A stretch of DNA of 64,000 nucleotides from Leptospiraceae bacterium (GTDB taxonomy: Bacteria > Spirochaetota > Leptospiria > Leptospirales > Leptospiraceae): positions 124,001 through 188,000 of the forward strand of contig JABTUZ010000001.1 of assembly GCA_015075105.1 (NCBI GenBank), given 5' to 3'. Positions 6,317-12,843 of this stretch are shown here, in pieces. The position numbers were made by a program, and so were the translations under genes. Each line of letters starts with the position of its first letter. Positions within the stretch are counted from its first letter, which is position 1. The notes under the pieces were generated by a model. The model searched no databases. It was not told where the DNA came from and saw only the letters and a list, made by a program, of their open reading frames with translations.

Positions 6317-7459
6317 TTGAATAAGAATTATTGGATATTGATTTTTTTTTCTATCTATCCGATTTATTCTAACGAAACTGCATTCACATACAAAAATTTA
6401 TTAGACCAAGCAGAAAGAAATATCTCTGAATTGAGGTTTGAAAAGGCACACGAAAAATTATCCATAGCCGGAAAAACTCAAACACCTGATTCAAGATTTT
6501 TTTTATTGCACGGAGAAGTGTATCTTGGTTTAAACTACCCTGAAGAGGCTCTTTTTAATTTTGAAAAAAGTCTTAAACTCAATCCGCGTCAACCGGAGAT
6601 TTTATTAAAATGTTCAAATCTTTCTTCTGCTTTAAAAAAGCCAAGAGAAGAATACAATTTTCTGCAAGGGTATTTGAAATTTTTTCCAAATCACAAGAAA
6701 GAGCTTTATAGAGTGCTTGTCTTAGCTTCCAGACTTGGAATTGACAAAACAAGAAAATCTATTTTACTAAAATTAAAAAGTGAAAATCCATTCAAATATG
6801 AATTAGAAGCGATACTTTCGCTAATCCATAAATTAATCTTAGAGAAAAAATTCAAAGAGGCTCTAATCGAATTAGATAAATATCTTCCAAACTTTCCAGA
6901 CAACGAATCATTACACAAACTTCTATTGATAGCTACAAAAGCGACCCACCCGCAAAATATTGAAAAAATTCTTATCGACTCTGCCGCAATCTTCAAATTT
7001 GATCCAAAATATACCGTAGAGTATGGCTTGTTTTTATTTGAAAAGAAAAAGCTCTTTGAAGCTCTTACTACATTTAGAAGAGCATTTCTTGTGAGCATAC
7101 TTACCTCTGGGTTCAAAGCAGATGAAGAGATACTGTTTTTTATCAGGCAAGTGTACTTTGAAATGGACAGACTGCAAGACGTTTCTGCAATACAAGACTT
7201 AGTGGAAATTGTAAAAGTACAAGAAAATCAATCTGTGGAAAAGTTAAACTCGTTGATTCGACTTCACAATAACAATCGAGAAATTTTGATTTTTGCTCTT
7301 TTTTATTTGTCAGAAAAAGGTTTTAAAAAAGAATACGAGAAAACGAGCGAGCTGTTATTGCTAAGAGACAAAAGAATGCAAGACAAAGAATTTATTGATG
7401 TTTTCGGAGCATTTTCTTATGAAAATTTGAGTATCGAAAAGGAGCGCCCACTTGAATAA
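6317..7459 (+). CDS. Secreted TPR-repeat protein
   Basis: The protein has 380 residues and starts with TTG at 6317. The N-terminus (NYWILIFFSIYPIYSNE) is a short signal peptide, so the protein is probably periplasmic. TPR units are clear at about residues 30-100, for example LHGEVYLGLNYPEEALFNFE followed by KSLKLNPRQPEILLKCSN. Weaker helical repeats continue to the end. Its last 8 bases overlap the TTG start of the next gene, which indicates translational coupling. A scaffolding role is inferred from the fold only. Confidence 0.75.
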   Translation: MNKNYWILIFFSIYPIYSNETAFTYKNLLDQAERNISELRFEKAHEKLSIAGKTQTPDSRFFLLHGEVYLGLNYPEEALFNFEKSLKLNPRQPEILLKCSNLSSALKKPREEYNFLQGYLKFFPNHKKELYRVLVLASRLGIDKTRKSILLKLKSENPFKYELEAILSLIHKLILEKKFKEALIELDKYLPNFPDNESLHKLLLIATKATHPQNIEKILIDSAAIFKFDPKYTVEYGLFLFEKKKLFEALTTFRRAFLVSILTSGFKADEEILFFIRQVYFEMDRLQDVSAIQDLVEIVKVQENQSVEKLNSLIRLHNNNREILIFALFYLSEKGFKKEYEKTSELLLLRDKRMQDKEFIDVFGAFSYENLSIEKERPLE

Positions 7460-7745
7460 GAAAGTTTTAAAAATTTATGACATTGTGCATAACGCATCTA
7501 ATAGCACAGAGATCGAGCTAAAAAAAGTCTTGAAAAGTATTATTAAAAAAAATCCAAATTGGGGGTGGGAGCAGATTTCTTTTCAGGATGTTTACGCTTG
7601 TGCTATCAATTCTCTCCCCGTAAATTACCAAAAAAAAGACCAAAGTGTTCAATCTAAACTTAATATCGAAGAAGTTGAAAAAGTAGTTCAAGCTGCAATG
7701 CATAGAATATCTTTAAACCCTATCCATCTGCCACAAAAAAAATAG
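7452..7745 (+). CDS. Small ComFB-like protein
   Basis: The protein has 97 residues and starts with TTG at 7452, 8 bases inside the previous gene. GGAG at 7441-7444 supports this start. The pattern FQDVYACAINSLPVNYQ resembles the conserved D-x-x-A-x-A-L-N-R-L-P-P-x-Y block of the late-competence ComFB family, and the size fits. ComFB-like proteins are small, and some bind cyclic di-nucleotides. The Cys residues of some members are absent. The assignment rests on one motif plus length, so it is tentative. Confidence 0.55.
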   Translation: MNKKVLKIYDIVHNASNSTEIELKKVLKSIIKKNPNWGWEQISFQDVYACAINSLPVNYQKKDQSVQSKLNIEEVEKVVQAAMHRISLNPIHLPQKK

Positions 7746-8277: not shown

Positions 8278-9426
8278 CTACTCTGAGTATCTCCACGTAA
8301 AATTTTTATTTAAAAAATAATTTCCAAATGTAGCTAAAAATATCCCGAGTAAGTTACTGATATAAGTCGAAAAACTCCCAAACATGTTAGGGAAATACAT
8401 TTGAATAATTTCCAAAGATAATCTCCAAACGGATAGCTGTATGATCAATCCTATTACGGAGATCAGATTAAATTTTATAAAACCAAAAATATTATCCAAT
8501 GCTCCAGTTTTTTTAAATTCATTGAATGTCCAGATATTGTTTAAAATATAATTGCTTAACACACTAAGCTCAAAACCAAAAACTACAGCAATGGAAGGCT
8601 TAAAATAACTTTGATAAATAATTCCTGTCTCTTTTAAATTCAAAACTTCAGTAGCGAAAAATTGTCCAAATAGATTTACAAAAATCCCAATAACTCCTGT
8701 GATCGAGTATTTTACAAATGTCAAAGAAATATATTTCCCGAAACGTATATCGTATAACGCTACAATATAGTTTTGGATAATCGAGGAAGACATTTTTGTT
8801 TCCCCGTGAATTCTGGTTCTAAAAACATAGCCGATTTCTTTTGCTCTAATTCCTTTTTTTCTACCCAAAAATTCTAATAGAATTTTAAACCCTCTTGGGT
8901 TGATAAGAGGAGCAATTTCCTCAAACAATTCTCTTTTTAAAATAAAAAATCCTGACATCGGATCACCGATTGGGATAGGGAGTAAAATTCTTGCAAGTAA
9001 GGTTGCGGCTTTACTCATCATCCTTCTGACAAAGCCCCACTCTCCGTACCCTCCTTCTTCTACCACTCTACTTCCCACAACTAAGTCATTTTCTTTTAAA
9101 GCGATAAGCATCTTTGGCAGGATACTTTCGTCGTGCTGCATATCTGCATCTATAACTCCAAGTGCATTTCCTTTCGCCAACTCCATCCCATCAATAACCG
9201 CAGAGCTAAGTCCTTTTTTATTCGCCCTTCTGATTACGTGAATTCTTTCATCACGAATAGACAACTCTTTTGCAACTCTCCATGTACCATCGGGAGAGTC
9301 ATCATCCACTACTATGATTTCAAACTTGATATTATTTTTTTCAAATAGAGATATAAGTTTTGGTATAAGAATAGAAATATTTTTTGACTCATTGAAAGTC
9401 GGGATGATTAGACTAAAGTCTGTCAT
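8278..9426 (-). CDS. GT2 polyprenyl-phosphate mannose synthase-like enzyme fused to GtrA
   Basis: The protein has 382 residues. Residues 1-235 are a family 2 glycosyltransferase of the DPM1 type: SLIIPTFNESKNI, VVDDDSPDGT, GVIDADMQHDES (the DxD metal-binding motif) and GDPMSGFF. Residues 240-380 contain four membrane helices of the GtrA kind, ending FLNKNFTWRY. Proteins with this architecture move a sugar from a nucleotide donor to a polyprenyl phosphate and help it across the inner membrane for glycan decoration. Its ATG overlaps the TGA of the lipoprotein gene at 9423 (ATGA), so it is the third gene of the btuB operon. Confidence 0.9.
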   Translation of the reverse strand: MTDFSLIIPTFNESKNISILIPKLISLFEKNNIKFEIIVVDDDSPDGTWRVAKELSIRDERIHVIRRANKKGLSSAVIDGMELAKGNALGVIDADMQHDESILPKMLIALKENDLVVGSRVVEEGGYGEWGFVRRMMSKAATLLARILLPIPIGDPMSGFFILKRELFEEIAPLINPRGFKILLEFLGRKKGIRAKEIGYVFRTRIHGETKMSSSIIQNYIVALYDIRFGKYISLTFVKYSITGVIGIFVNLFGQFFATEVLNLKETGIIYQSYFKPSIAVVFGFELSVLSNYILNNIWTFNEFKKTGALDNIFGFIKFNLISVIGLIIQLSVWRLSLEIIQMYFPNMFGSFSTYISNLLGIFLATFGNYFLNKNFTWRYSE

Positions 9427-10160
9427 CCGGATACTGGAATATTTTTAGCGTTGCAGTTGAGTGTTCCCTTGATTACAATAGGAGTTCCGCCTGACGCAGT
9501 GGACGCAGAACTCAAACAGGTTCTATTGTCTGTAGTGAAACATTTTGTAGAAGTTACAGTGCTTGTGCAATTGATACTATCCGATGTGTAGCATTCTATC
9601 GGTGTAGTAGTCGTTCCTACACCTGGAGTATAAGTCCCTTGCAAATTCACATTGATATTTAGAAACTGAACTACTTGAGTTCCTTGATTGGAGTCGTCCA
9701 CATTCACTCCTTGGTTCAACCATTTTACAAGACCCTGCTTCCCTGTGACTGTATCATTAAACACACCACCTGTAAAAGTAAAGCCTTGCTGTTGGTCAAT
9801 CGGACCTTGAGTTTGAGTAGTGTCGTATATGAATTTAATTGTAAGGATTTCCTTTGTAGTTTTCATCACAAACTGACTAAGAACAGTAAATCGAGTATTA
9901 GTAGTCTTCGTAGAAGTTGTTGTGGTTGTAGTGGTACCTGTAGTTCCGGTTGCGGTGGTTGCAGGAGTTGCAGTTCCACAGTTGGGCGTTAGATCCATGT
10001 CAATCATTCCATTACTAAGTAAGTATGTTTTTCCGTTGTCAATCAAAGGAAGTAAATCGACATGAACTTCATTCTCGTTCTTAGTATGACAAAATTGTAA
10101 AAAGAAAATCACTCCAATAAGGATAAATTTATTTATATAAAAGATAGCATTTTTACTCAT
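9423..10160 (-). CDS. Threonine-rich lipoprotein in B12-regulated operon
   Basis: The protein has 245 residues. A hydrophobic leader (residues 10-23) ends in FLQFCHTK, a lipobox with Cys24. Residues 63-90 are a low-complexity Thr/Ala/Gly tract, possibly a flexible or glycosylated linker. The rest is predicted beta-rich. A pair of similar Cys-containing segments (IECYTSDSINCTS and TKCFTTDNRTCLS) forms a small internal repeat near the C-terminus. I do not recognise the family. It lies 36 bases after the BtuB-like receptor and overlaps the following glycosyltransferase by 4 bases. Co-regulation with a corrinoid receptor is therefore likely, but any role in corrinoid capture is inference. Confidence 0.75.
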   Translation of the reverse strand: MSKNAIFYINKFILIGVIFFLQFCHTKNENEVHVDLLPLIDNGKTYLLSNGMIDMDLTPNCGTATPATTATGTTGTTTTTTTSTKTTNTRFTVLSQFVMKTTKEILTIKFIYDTTQTQGPIDQQQGFTFTGGVFNDTVTGKQGLVKWLNQGVNVDDSNQGTQVVQFLNINVNLQGTYTPGVGTTTTPIECYTSDSINCTSTVTSTKCFTTDNRTCLSSASTASGGTPIVIKGTLNCNAKNIPVSG

Positions 10161-10196
10161 AAATGAAATATTCCTTTTTTCAGAAAATTAGTCAAC

Positions 10197-12272
10197 CTAA
10201 AATTTACCGCTTAAAGTAGCATAATACAATCTACCCGGAAGAGGATAACCCACAAAATCTTCGGCTCTCGTATCGGATATATTCTTGATTTCTATACTCA
10301 ACATTATTTCTTTTTCGGAGTGCTTTTTTTTTCTTCCTCCAAAATAATAAGAAAAAAATACGTTATAAATCCACCTCGAAGGCTGATAATTGACATACTC
10401 ATTTGTCCTGTCCTTGAAAACAGCGCCTATAAAATGTGATTCTATTCCTATTTCCAAGTAACGATTATAAAATGAAACCTGTCCAAACCAATCGTGCATT
10501 GGTCTCAATGGAAGATATTTTCCTTTCAAATAACTGACATCCGATGTATTGATTGCTTTTTGATAAGTATAGTTAGACTCAAATTTTATTTTTTGATAAA
10601 TATCTGCTTTTACAGAAAATTCAAATCCTTGAATAGACGCAGAATCAATATTTTCAGGTCTAAGAGAAAATTGAGAATTCGGAACAAATAAAATCATATC
10701 TTTTATGTTCTTGGAGAAAAGCGACAGAGAAGTTTTTAGTTCAATTTTTTTAGTAGAATAATTTACCACAGGCCCTATATCAGAGTTCTTACTTTTTTCG
10801 GGACTTAAAGAAGTATTTCCGAGAATAGAACCTCTTTCTCCAAACAGCTCTAAAAAATTCGGAGCCCTTTTTTCAGAAGAGATATTGCCTTTTATAGAAA
10901 TTGTTTTATTCAAATCTTGAAGCAAAACCGCAAGAAGTCCAAGTTTATAGTTAGTGTATCGCATAACTGATTTTCCATCGTCTGGGTTAAGCAAATTGAA
11001 TTCTTTGGTTTCTGGATTATTGTATCTGTCCGTATAATTTTCAGATATTGCAGATGGAATAAAATTTAACTTTTTTGAAAAAAATCGAATTTCATCTTGA
11101 AGTTGAAACGTAGAATGATTTCTAAACTTTCTTGTAGATTTATCAACAATCTCATCAAAAGTATTTCTTCTGTCTCTTTGAAAAGTTTCCCTTTCTAAAG
11201 AAACGAAGAATCGAATGATCTGGTTGTAATTTAAAAGATAGTATGTCGGAATTATATGCAGCCCATACTGCTGAATATCTGCTTTGGAATTTGGAGTGCC
11301 ACTTGAAAATTCTGAATTCGGATCAAAGACATGGTCTCTAGTTCCCGTATAAAAAGTTCTTGTTTCCAATTTAATGTTTTCCGAAAGAAACTCCGGTGTT
11401 TCTGTTCCGATTGCACTTGTATTTCTAACGTATTCTCTCTCAACTTTTTTTGTTTGCCTGTTTCCAGGGCCGGGAATCCCATTTGTACGATAGGCGAAAT
11501 CGTTTAATAAAGTAAGTTTCGTTTTTCCTAATTCACCGGCAAGATTTCCGCTAAAATTATACCGATTGAATTGAGCGTTTCTTCTGCGATCATCAAAATC
11601 ATCGGTCTTATTCAAAACAGGAGTGCCATTGTTATTTCTAAATAAAAAATCCTGATCGCTTTTTTCGTTTTGGACTAATATGGAATATTGAACTTTCTCT
11701 GTAAAATCAGAGTGAGATGCGGAAATTTTCCCGGTATTCAAACTTCCTACAGAAATTGTTGCTCTTGAAATTTTTATTTTTACATCCTTCCCTACGATTA
11801 GGTTTACACTCCCACCGATTGCAGAGGAAGAAAGCCCCAAGGTGGAGCCACTCTTATATATTTCAATTCTTTCTATACTGTCAAAAGGCAAATCCGATAA
11901 ATTGATTTCTCCTCCTTGAGAATTATTGATTGGAACTCCGTTAATATAAAACATCACCTGATTGGAATTTGACCCACGTATGGAAAGAGTGGAGTAAGAG
12001 CCAAGCCCACCAAATTTCTTTACACGAATACCGGCTTCTTTTTCTAATACATCTGCAAGCGACAAATATTTTCCTCTGAAAGACTCAGCAGAAATTACAT
12101 TCACAAATGCAGATGGATCTTCCTTTATTGAATTCGTTTTAGAAGTGTTATTATTGTTAGTCGCAATTACTTCAATTTCTTTCACTCGAATTGGTTTAGA
12201 AAAATCAGATTGAGAAAATACAGAGCCTGAAATACAAAATATGGCAAAAAATATATATATCAAAAATAACAT
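10197..12272 (-). CDS. btuB: TonB-dependent outer-membrane receptor, BtuB-like
   Basis: The protein has 691 residues. After a signal peptide ending near SGSVFSQ comes a plug domain of about residues 50-165: DVLEKEAGIRVKKFGG, STLSIRGSNSNQVMFYINGV, DSIERIEIYKSG and SAIGGSVNLI. A beta-barrel follows and ends in an aromatic residue (YYATLSGKF), as required for outer-membrane insertion. Such receptors import a ligand using TonB energy. The cobalamin riboswitch upstream argues for vitamin B12 or a related corrinoid, hence the symbol. The ATG at 12272 directly abuts GGAG, leaving no spacing. The TTG three codons later (12263) has better spacing and may be the true start. Confidence 0.88.
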   Translation of the reverse strand: MLFLIYIFFAIFCISGSVFSQSDFSKPIRVKEIEVIATNNNNTSKTNSIKEDPSAFVNVISAESFRGKYLSLADVLEKEAGIRVKKFGGLGSYSTLSIRGSNSNQVMFYINGVPINNSQGGEINLSDLPFDSIERIEIYKSGSTLGLSSSAIGGSVNLIVGKDVKIKISRATISVGSLNTGKISASHSDFTEKVQYSILVQNEKSDQDFLFRNNNGTPVLNKTDDFDDRRRNAQFNRYNFSGNLAGELGKTKLTLLNDFAYRTNGIPGPGNRQTKKVEREYVRNTSAIGTETPEFLSENIKLETRTFYTGTRDHVFDPNSEFSSGTPNSKADIQQYGLHIIPTYYLLNYNQIIRFFVSLERETFQRDRRNTFDEIVDKSTRKFRNHSTFQLQDEIRFFSKKLNFIPSAISENYTDRYNNPETKEFNLLNPDDGKSVMRYTNYKLGLLAVLLQDLNKTISIKGNISSEKRAPNFLELFGERGSILGNTSLSPEKSKNSDIGPVVNYSTKKIELKTSLSLFSKNIKDMILFVPNSQFSLRPENIDSASIQGFEFSVKADIYQKIKFESNYTYQKAINTSDVSYLKGKYLPLRPMHDWFGQVSFYNRYLEIGIESHFIGAVFKDRTNEYVNYQPSRWIYNVFFSYYFGGRKKKHSEKEIMLSIEIKNISDTRAEDFVGYPLPGRLYYATLSGKF

Positions 12273-12289
12273 CTCCAGTCCGCGAGAGA

Positions 12290-12420
12290 TTTATTCGTAA
12301 ACGAGTGTCTGACTTACTCTGTAGAGTTCACAGTTGCGGGACAGTGAGGGAATGGTATTTTAAGGTACTCCACCCTCTTCCTCGATACAATTCTTCTATA
12401 TTAATTTTTAGATTAAATTC
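12290..12420 (-). promoter_or_regulatory. Cobalamin riboswitch
   Basis: On the minus strand, just upstream of the BtuB-like gene, lies ACTGTCCCGCAACTGTGA, a very close match to the B12-box core (C-CCGCAACTGT-A). It is followed by AGTCAGACACTC, which matches the GAGTCAGAC element 3' of the box. A GGTGGAGTACC and CATTCCCT segment upstream fits the GG.../GGGAA part of the aptamer more loosely. Cobalamin riboswitches turn off transport genes when adenosylcobalamin is plentiful. The boundaries are approximate because I could not fold the RNA. Confidence 0.85.
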
Positions 12421-12843
12421 TTCAAGTATATTCCTTGCGACTTAAAAATAGTTTTTACTGATTTCGGAATTTTATTATTTTGAAAAAGAGAAAACTAATG
12501 ACAAGCCATTGTATCTTCATTTTACAATCAGAAAAGATTGTATTCAACATTCGATTTGACATCTCTGGTAAAAATACAGAGTCTTCACAGGGACACAATA
12601 TCCAGTAGCTTTTGTGGCGCATCGTTCACTACATTGTTAATATAGGACTAAAGGAGATCTATCCTTCTTTGAGACTTTGATAATGATAGGAAAAAGAGTA
12701 ATCATCAAGTTTAAAATAATTACGTTAGGCGAAATCGACTTATGATAATTTGCAAAAATTAGTTAGGATGGATATTGTTATAGAAGTTTTCTGTTTTTTG
12801 ATAGCCATGTTAAGTGAAGTTTTGGTACGATAACGAAAATCTT
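12421..12843. other. Gene-free AT-rich stretch
   Basis: No convincing open frame, repeat or RNA gene is seen here. It lies between the cobalamin riboswitch and the vapC remnant and appears to be decayed DNA. A promoter for the btuB operon, reading leftward, is expected near 12430-12480, but no clear -35/-10 pair could be picked out. Confidence 0.4.

Follow-up and report, generated by a model that had tools for sequence, protein, structure and literature searches.

The minus strand of a 64,000-nucleotide stretch from a Leptospiraceae bacterium (NCBI GenBank GCA_015075105.1, contig JABTUZ010000001.1, positions 124,001 to 188,000) carries a cobalamin riboswitch followed by genes for a BtuB-like receptor, a Thr-rich lipoprotein, and a glycosyltransferase. 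We refer to the whole stretch as the window and to its genome (3.42 Mb, 4 contigs, 99.97% complete) as G000. An earlier note on this DNA had grouped these elements as a vitamin B12 operon, in which the lipoprotein would be a surface capture protein comparable to BtuG of Bacteroides. The features are listed below in window coordinates.

12283..12425, minus strand: cobalamin riboswitch aptamer (RF00174; 38.7 bits, gathering threshold 31.5)
10197..12272, minus strand: BtuB-like TonB-dependent outer-membrane receptor, 691 amino acids (Plug domain PF07715; PDB matches)
9423..10160, minus strand: LIC10920-family lipoprotein, 245 amino acids, lipobox Cys24 (NF047807, 243.1 bits)
9885..9959, minus strand: Thr-rich linker of the lipoprotein, residues 68-92 (Ser/Thr 18/25; part of a low-confidence model)
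8278..9426, minus strand: GT2-GtrA polyprenyl-phosphate sugar synthase, resembling dolichol monophosphate mannose synthase, 382 amino acids (PF00535, PF04138, PDB 5mlz)
7452..7745, plus strand: short open reading frame (ORF), 97 amino acids, outside the operon (cluster c20; weak ComFB match below cut-off)

The ORFs and the RF00174 match agree with the anatomy that had been described, namely one riboswitch and three genes, with a gap of 36 bases between receptor and lipoprotein (10161-10196) and an overlap of 4 bases between lipoprotein and glycosyltransferase (9423-9426). The range originally assigned to the operon, 9423-12420, misses the glycosyltransferase, whose ORF extends to 8278. The riboswitch match (E-value 3e-6 for the window) covers the whole model with several non-standard pairs, and 10 bases separate its 3' end from the receptor ATG. 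A GGAG motif directly abuts this ATG, and a TTG three codons downstream would have better spacing; the start codon of the receptor is therefore uncertain. Since a scan of the minus strand between the genes returned no terminator-like site (3 in the entire stretch, 2.6 expected by chance), co-transcription of receptor, lipoprotein, and glycosyltransferase is plausible. A promoter scan was uninformative, with 18 sites against a chance expectation of 17.0.

Conservation of the trio and of its parts

A lipoprotein search recovered relatives in 18 of 61 genomes, all from families f1 and f2, and three further lipoproteins, which came to light only at the loci retrieved for the glycosyltransferase, brought the total to 21 genomes. 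Conservation of the trio had been named beforehand as a test of the operon proposal, which it failed: the receptor precedes the lipoprotein in 1 of the 21 genomes, that of the window, and 20 of the 21 possess a receptor. The riboswitch likewise stands upstream of the lipoprotein in G000 only (1/21). The relative G014 has its receptor and lipoprotein about 567 kb apart on one 4.3-Mb contig. The glycosyltransferase, in turn, follows the lipoprotein in 16 of the 21 genomes, across two families and without the receptor in the relatives; among genomes found by the lipoprotein search alone, the figure is 13 of 18. For this count, lipoprotein and glycosyltransferase had to lie within 700 bases of each other, and two low-scoring glycosyltransferase rows (the second for G002 and the second for G005) were excluded. 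Taken together, the rarity of the receptor–lipoprotein adjacency and the frequency of the lipoprotein–glycosyltransferase adjacency suggest that the trio is two units joined here. We assign a probability of about 0.75 to the reading that two older units, each conserved in its own right, were joined at this locus in this lineage.

The c20 ORF bears on how such a junction could have arisen. Five other genomes have it ahead of the lipoprotein (L091, L093, L094, L095, and L097), and in the window it occupies the opposite strand, beyond the glycosyltransferase. Its displacement points to a rearrangement, the simplest reading of which is that the lipoprotein–glycosyltransferase pair moved behind the receptor in this lineage. 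Two circumstances weaken the case for a junction. The relatives include no second genome from the genus of G000, and draft assemblies limit linkage counts in general, though the separation in G014 is on one contig. Seven relatives' loci checked by title were all from metagenome-assembled genomes (MAGs), with no Leptospira isolate among them.

In the mechanism we propose, low intracellular cobamide would lead the riboswitch to permit expression, and the receptor would import corrinoid using TonB energy. The second unit would comprise a LIC10920-family surface lipoprotein and a membrane enzyme making a polyprenyl-phosphate-linked hexose, from which a separate periplasmic GT-C transferase would O-glycosylate the Ser/Thr-rich linker of the lipoprotein. 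A rearrangement would have placed this pair behind the receptor in G000, where it is probably co-transcribed with the receptor and may be B12-responsive as a side effect.

The lipoprotein and its glycosyltransferase

The window lipoprotein belongs to NF047807, the "LIC10920 family plasminogen-binding lipoprotein", whose cut-off of 210 bits is passed over residues 24-241. In this it resembles LIC10920 (Lsa24.9) of L. interrogans, for which laminin and plasminogen binding has been reported (PMC7662565). It differs in standing behind a B12 receptor, whereas the known activity of LIC10920 is laminin and plasminogen binding. On the strength of the family assignment and of the binding reported for Lsa24.9, the lipoprotein could be an adhesin for host matrix or plasminogen that came under B12 control incidentally. 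We judge this improbable, as the relatives come from MAGs with no host in the title at 7 of 7 loci, and several recombinant proteins of Leptospira, including LIC_13355, are likewise reported to bind plasminogen. Since the LIC_13355 family occurs in B12 contexts (see below), such binding may not be a specific readout.

Of the 25 residues from 68 to 92, 18 are Ser or Thr, a density far beyond chance. At least 15 Ser/Thr per 25 are present in 12 of the 21 family members and distant relatives, the other 9 being lower with a minimum of 11, and in none of 854 other ORFs of at least 150 amino acids from the loci fetched by then. Four Cys residues forming two Cys-loops are invariant across all 21 aligned lipoproteins; in one family the loop pair lies close to the C-terminus and in the other further forward in the chain, which would fit an element that had shifted its position between strands.

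The glycosyltransferase combines a GT2 domain (PF00535, 115.7 bits) and a GtrA domain (PF04138, 50.2 bits), both above cut-off, in a single chain. It matches dolichol monophosphate mannose synthase 5mlz, an archaeal protein, at an E-value of 7.6e-59 over residues 4-379. The likeness is thus full-length and includes both GT2 and the GtrA-type membrane domain. GT2-GtrA enzymes make polyprenyl-phosphate sugars that are used by other transferases outside the inner membrane, and the one G000 match above the PMT (PF02366) cut-off could be a periplasmic transferase of this kind. The best NCBIfam model was PgfS (NF047588); at 73.9 bits against a cut-off of 500, assignment as PgfS was rejected. In Streptococcus mutans, the modified part of the surface adhesin Cnm is Thr-rich. 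The PgfS glycosyltransferase is required for the modification of Cnm (PMC5856776). The window enzyme is similarly proposed to help modify a surface lipoprotein, although PgfS–Cnm is a Gram-positive system and the enzyme is not PgfS.

Given the conserved pair and the recurrent Ser/Thr-rich linker, O-glycosylation of the linker with the help of this enzyme is our best guess, and we put it at even odds. The suggestion in the earlier note that the enzyme decorates the Thr-rich segment thereby gains indirect support from sequence comparison. Other observations count against it. The glycosyltransferase is not adjacent in 5 of the 21 genomes, and two of them (G004 and G009) have none at an E-value of 1e-20. 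The f2 lipoproteins are distant, one scoring 46.5 bits against the NF047807 cut-off of 210, so the wide occurrence of the pair leans on weak homology and a common neighbourhood. Because the f2 lipoproteins were partly found via the linker, linker and homology are not fully independent. The enzyme might instead feed a general envelope glycan, such as lipopolysaccharide, with its pairing to the lipoprotein being positional only. GT2-GtrA enzymes generally supply several pathways with polyprenyl-phosphate sugars, and homologues lie away from the lipoprotein in G001, G002, and G014. This alternative is a tentative one and the less probable, in view of the adjacency in 16 of 21 genomes from two families and the Ser/Thr-rich linker that recurs in the partner.

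A literature search on O-glycosylation of Leptospira lipoproteins returned no paper with that subject, as judged by title. For Bacteroides BtuG1, density at Thr164 has been interpreted as a likely O-glycan (PMC10404256), which raises the possibility that glycosylated B12 lipoproteins exist in another phylum.

Some variation was seen around the pair. The glycosyltransferase gene of G005 is broken into frames of 52 and 226 amino acids (L097:10711-11539), with intact copies in relatives. In family f2 (L098, L100, L101, L103, L106, and L107), the pair sits inside a larger conserved neighbourhood, in which c7 (about 380-430 amino acids) is ahead of the pair and c3, c6, and c5 come after it. At five of these six f2 loci, all but L103, c7 and the lipoprotein are separated by c16, which was identified for L100 as a GTP cyclohydrolase I gene.

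The receptor and candidates for B12 capture

The Plug domain of the receptor scores 72.6 bits (cut-off 23.9). Against the PDB, the top match is the TonB-linked receptor 9gbc (5.5e-18), followed by BtuB entries at 4.1e-12 to 5.2e-12; those for BtuB of Bacteroides range from 4.9e-10 to 1.5e-7. The RF00174 match ahead of the receptor is one of two in the entire genome. A similar arrangement is reported for L. interrogans, in which riboswitch LIC1nc55 lies upstream of LIC12374/btuB (PMC3953431), and for L. licerasiae, in which a cobalamin riboswitch likewise precedes a BtuB-like receptor (PMC3493377). Unlike in the window, LIC10920 and LIC12374 appear distant in L. interrogans by locus number, so no trio is expected there. 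In 14 of 38 genomes, a riboswitch precedes the receptor by no more than 1,200 bases, with c13, a lipoprotein described below, intervening in some.

Specificity for B12 is less clear-cut. The colicin I receptor matches the window protein (5.9e-12) about as well as BtuB does; the B12-receptor equivalog TIGR01779 gives 124.7 bits, well under its cut-off of 599.7; and the siderophore-receptor model MxcH scores slightly higher, at 127.9 bits, far below its own cut-off of 925. "BtuB-like" is therefore the fitting label. The idea of a BtuB-like receptor under a B12 riboswitch is borne out by the riboswitch, the plug, and the PDB matches, and falls short at the curated BtuB cut-off. We conclude that the receptor most likely takes up corrinoids under riboswitch control, with the substrate deduced from these sequence features.

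A different lipoprotein, c2 (about 360-470 amino acids as called), is the usual neighbour of this receptor. It occurs in 40 of 48 genomes of the class and in 48 of 392 of the phylum, and, of the 37 class genomes having both, 27 carry c2 no more than 1,200 bases behind the receptor. The ten others are G000, G001, G003, G005, G006, G007, G011, G022, G026, and G047; in G022, one gene of 745 amino acids lies between receptor and c2. G008, counted as linked, has a short ORF in between. Outside the class, c2 is found in 8 genomes, and six loci were examined: G104 and G172 have the order c13–receptor–c2, G184 has receptor–c2, and G190, G158, and G123 have c2 before the receptor. In G000, c2 (C1:1840102-1841247, L158) is an open frame of 390 amino acids unlinked from the receptor, and no receptor or riboswitch match was found near it.

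When the c2 profile was compared with 177,635 PDB sequences, the top three matches were 8puj, 8okv, and 8p97, with whole-sequence E-values of 0.0015-0.0021. Of these, 8okv and 8p97 contain Bacteroides BtuG3 (PMC10404256). The likeness to Bacteroides BtuB–BtuG loci (BtuG2, BtuG3) is therefore twofold: c2 is a lipoprotein that usually follows a TonB receptor of the riboswitch-controlled type, and its three top-scoring solved structures include BtuG3. The match to BtuG is weak, however, with no single stretch significant (best i-Evalue 0.44). With a more diverse profile, these three stayed on top but scored worse (0.0097-0.017), and the first small profile had given 0.088. Across 28 aligned members, no Pfam family was better than 0.0013. 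One of the 28 matches DUF5074 weakly (0.0057); this domain was rejected as a bridge between c2 and BtuG, as it occurs at 20 places in 15 of 61 genomes and at none of the c2 loci. A single scan of viral contigs, run with a single pattern, returned no c2 relative. The label "BtuG-like" for c2 is thus a cautious one, drawn chiefly from gene order and a weak sequence signal.

Downstream of the second cobalamin riboswitch of G000 (C1:223600-223771) lie the genes of two lipoproteins, c9 and c13.

G000:C1:223600-225380 (L138:8601-10381), outside the window: riboswitch, c9, and c13

The G000 c13 protein belongs to the LIC_13355 lipoprotein family (NF033170, 260.1 bits, cut-off 120). Of the 37 genomes with c13, 22 have a riboswitch at most 1,800 bases ahead of it and 29 have any riboswitch match, and the order riboswitch–c13–receptor–c2 is found in G002, of the same family as G000, and in several f3 genomes. 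Assignment of c13 to the B12-binding domain DUF4465 (BtuH/BtuJ type) was unsupported: no Pfam family fell below 0.05 in 27 members, and the one PDB match, at an E-value of 0.16, was unrelated. Cys-rich proteins of 59 and 66 amino acids, which presumably resemble DUF5522, directly follow c13 in riboswitch loci (L141:4014-4193; L142:12113-12313). A further Cys-rich segment, likewise short, occurs close to riboswitch loci: towards the N-terminus of the G014 c13 ORF (L120:6690-8087) and, in G003, as a separate small ORF after c9 (L111:6804-7202).

The limits behind these linkage figures were of our choosing (riboswitch–c13, 1,800 bases; riboswitch–receptor, 1,200; receptor–c2, 1,200; c13–receptor, 1,300), and the gaps are rough, as matches may be shorter than genes. 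Eleven riboswitch rows from genomes outside the class were dropped, and receptor matches that came in pieces were combined. The receptor of G031 and that of G033 fell under the search threshold, yet each was found between c13 and c2 at the locus, and simple ORF calling missed c13 in G002 (an open frame) and c2 in G037 (found by match). No receptor was recognised beside c2 in G044 and G047, where c2 is on short contigs.

In L. interrogans, LIC13354 and LIC13355 correspond to LA_4202 and LA_4203 (PMC5348505), which are marked present in 20 of 20 Leptospira species within a cob II cluster with cobT, cobS, and cobC (PMC4758666). The same source states that they may or may not participate in B12 biosynthesis and that non-pathogens split cob II into two clusters. 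The G000 locus resembles cob II in that c13 is of the LIC_13355 family and c9 occupies the position of LIC13354; from this gene order we infer that c9 is of the LIC13354 family. Unlike that description, c13 is here linked to the riboswitch, receptor, and c2 across the class. A paper that reports LIC_13355 as an adhesin for laminin and plasminogen contains none of the terms cobalamin, B12, and riboswitch (PMC11891782). In rat chamber cultures, LIC13354 and LIC13355 rose 3.77- and 3.72-fold with btuB unchanged (PMC3953431), which speaks against simple co-regulation of these lipoproteins with the receptor.

These results bear directly on the proposal that the Thr-rich lipoprotein is a BtuG-like corrinoid capture protein co-regulated with the receptor. 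The operon-like spacing behind a riboswitch-controlled receptor favors it. So does, to a degree, the AlphaFold model of the window lipoprotein (8-sequence alignment), which is all-beta at a predicted local distance difference test (pLDDT) score of 56, with residues 70-86 below 50. VIA-align comparisons of this low-confidence model returned mostly streptavidin-like barrels and also hemophilin, both ligand binders, at Z scores of at most 6.1. VIA-align flags such scores as possibly a mere common arrangement, and we did not use them as evidence of function; BtuG-type chains were absent from the list obtained with this model. The L165 relative, modeled likewise from 8 sequences, reached a pLDDT of 43. 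With respect to the seven-bladed beta-propeller expected of a BtuG, the window model thus showed no more than an all-beta arrangement with look-alikes of middling Z. As a reservation about our own conclusion, the lipoprotein may still have a B12-binding fold, as far as such low-confidence models can tell. Nonetheless, its profile has no relative among solved structures up to an E-value of 1, Foldseek gave no PDB match at 0.001 or better, linkage to the receptor is confined to 1 of 21 genomes, and in most relatives a different, weakly BtuG-like lipoprotein stands behind the receptor. Because the trio is unconserved and c2 is the usual receptor neighbour, it is improbable that the Thr-rich lipoprotein corresponds to BtuG, and the proposed role is highly unlikely. 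Of the interpretation in the earlier note, the riboswitch–receptor part holds, the BtuG-like role is unsupported, and the glycosyltransferase–linker guess survives with indirect support. The window in this respect differs from Bacteroides BtuB–BtuG loci, since its Thr-rich lipoprotein is probably not the receptor partner.

The BtuG-like part in G000 is more likely played by c2, together with the LIC_13355-family c13 under the second riboswitch. The lipoproteins at that riboswitch are better candidates for B12 lipoproteins than the Thr-rich lipoprotein, and c2, possibly along with LIC_13355, suits the part of a BtuG counterpart better than it does. One could also suppose that the lipoprotein–glycosyltransferase pair was recruited into B12 uptake in this lineage and replaced c2 in the receptor complex, in keeping with a G000 c2 that is not behind the receptor and has no riboswitch match nearby. 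We hold the chance of this to be very slight: c2 persists in G000 as an open frame of 390 amino acids, and it is also unlinked in G001, G003, G005, G006, and G007, where this lipoprotein has not taken its place.

Beyond the junction itself, the gene orders suggest that the leptospiral class and some other spirochaetes have a B12 capture module of their own, made up of riboswitch, c13, BtuB-like receptor, and BtuG-like c2. In the window's lineage, this module would be split, with a putative glycoprotein pair under the receptor riboswitch; we consider the chances evenly balanced. A BlastP search over 313 gut strains was reported to place BtuG homologues in Bacteroidetes alone (PMC6143338), and our literature searches on BtuG/BtuB, Leptospira btuB and B12, and the locus tags, screened mostly by title, returned no spirochaete BtuG or surface B12 capture.

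Together, these comparisons illustrate how operon-like proximity, seen in a single genome, would have pointed to the wrong protein for B12 capture. The conserved pair of a lipoprotein and a polyprenyl-sugar synthase provides a lead for O-glycosylated lipoproteins in the order, and c2 and LIC_13355 are two testable candidates for surface B12 capture in spirochaetes. If the proposed module is correct, BtuG-type capture would not be confined to Bacteroidetes, and LIC_13355 would be primarily a cobamide-uptake lipoprotein, calling its adhesin label into question.

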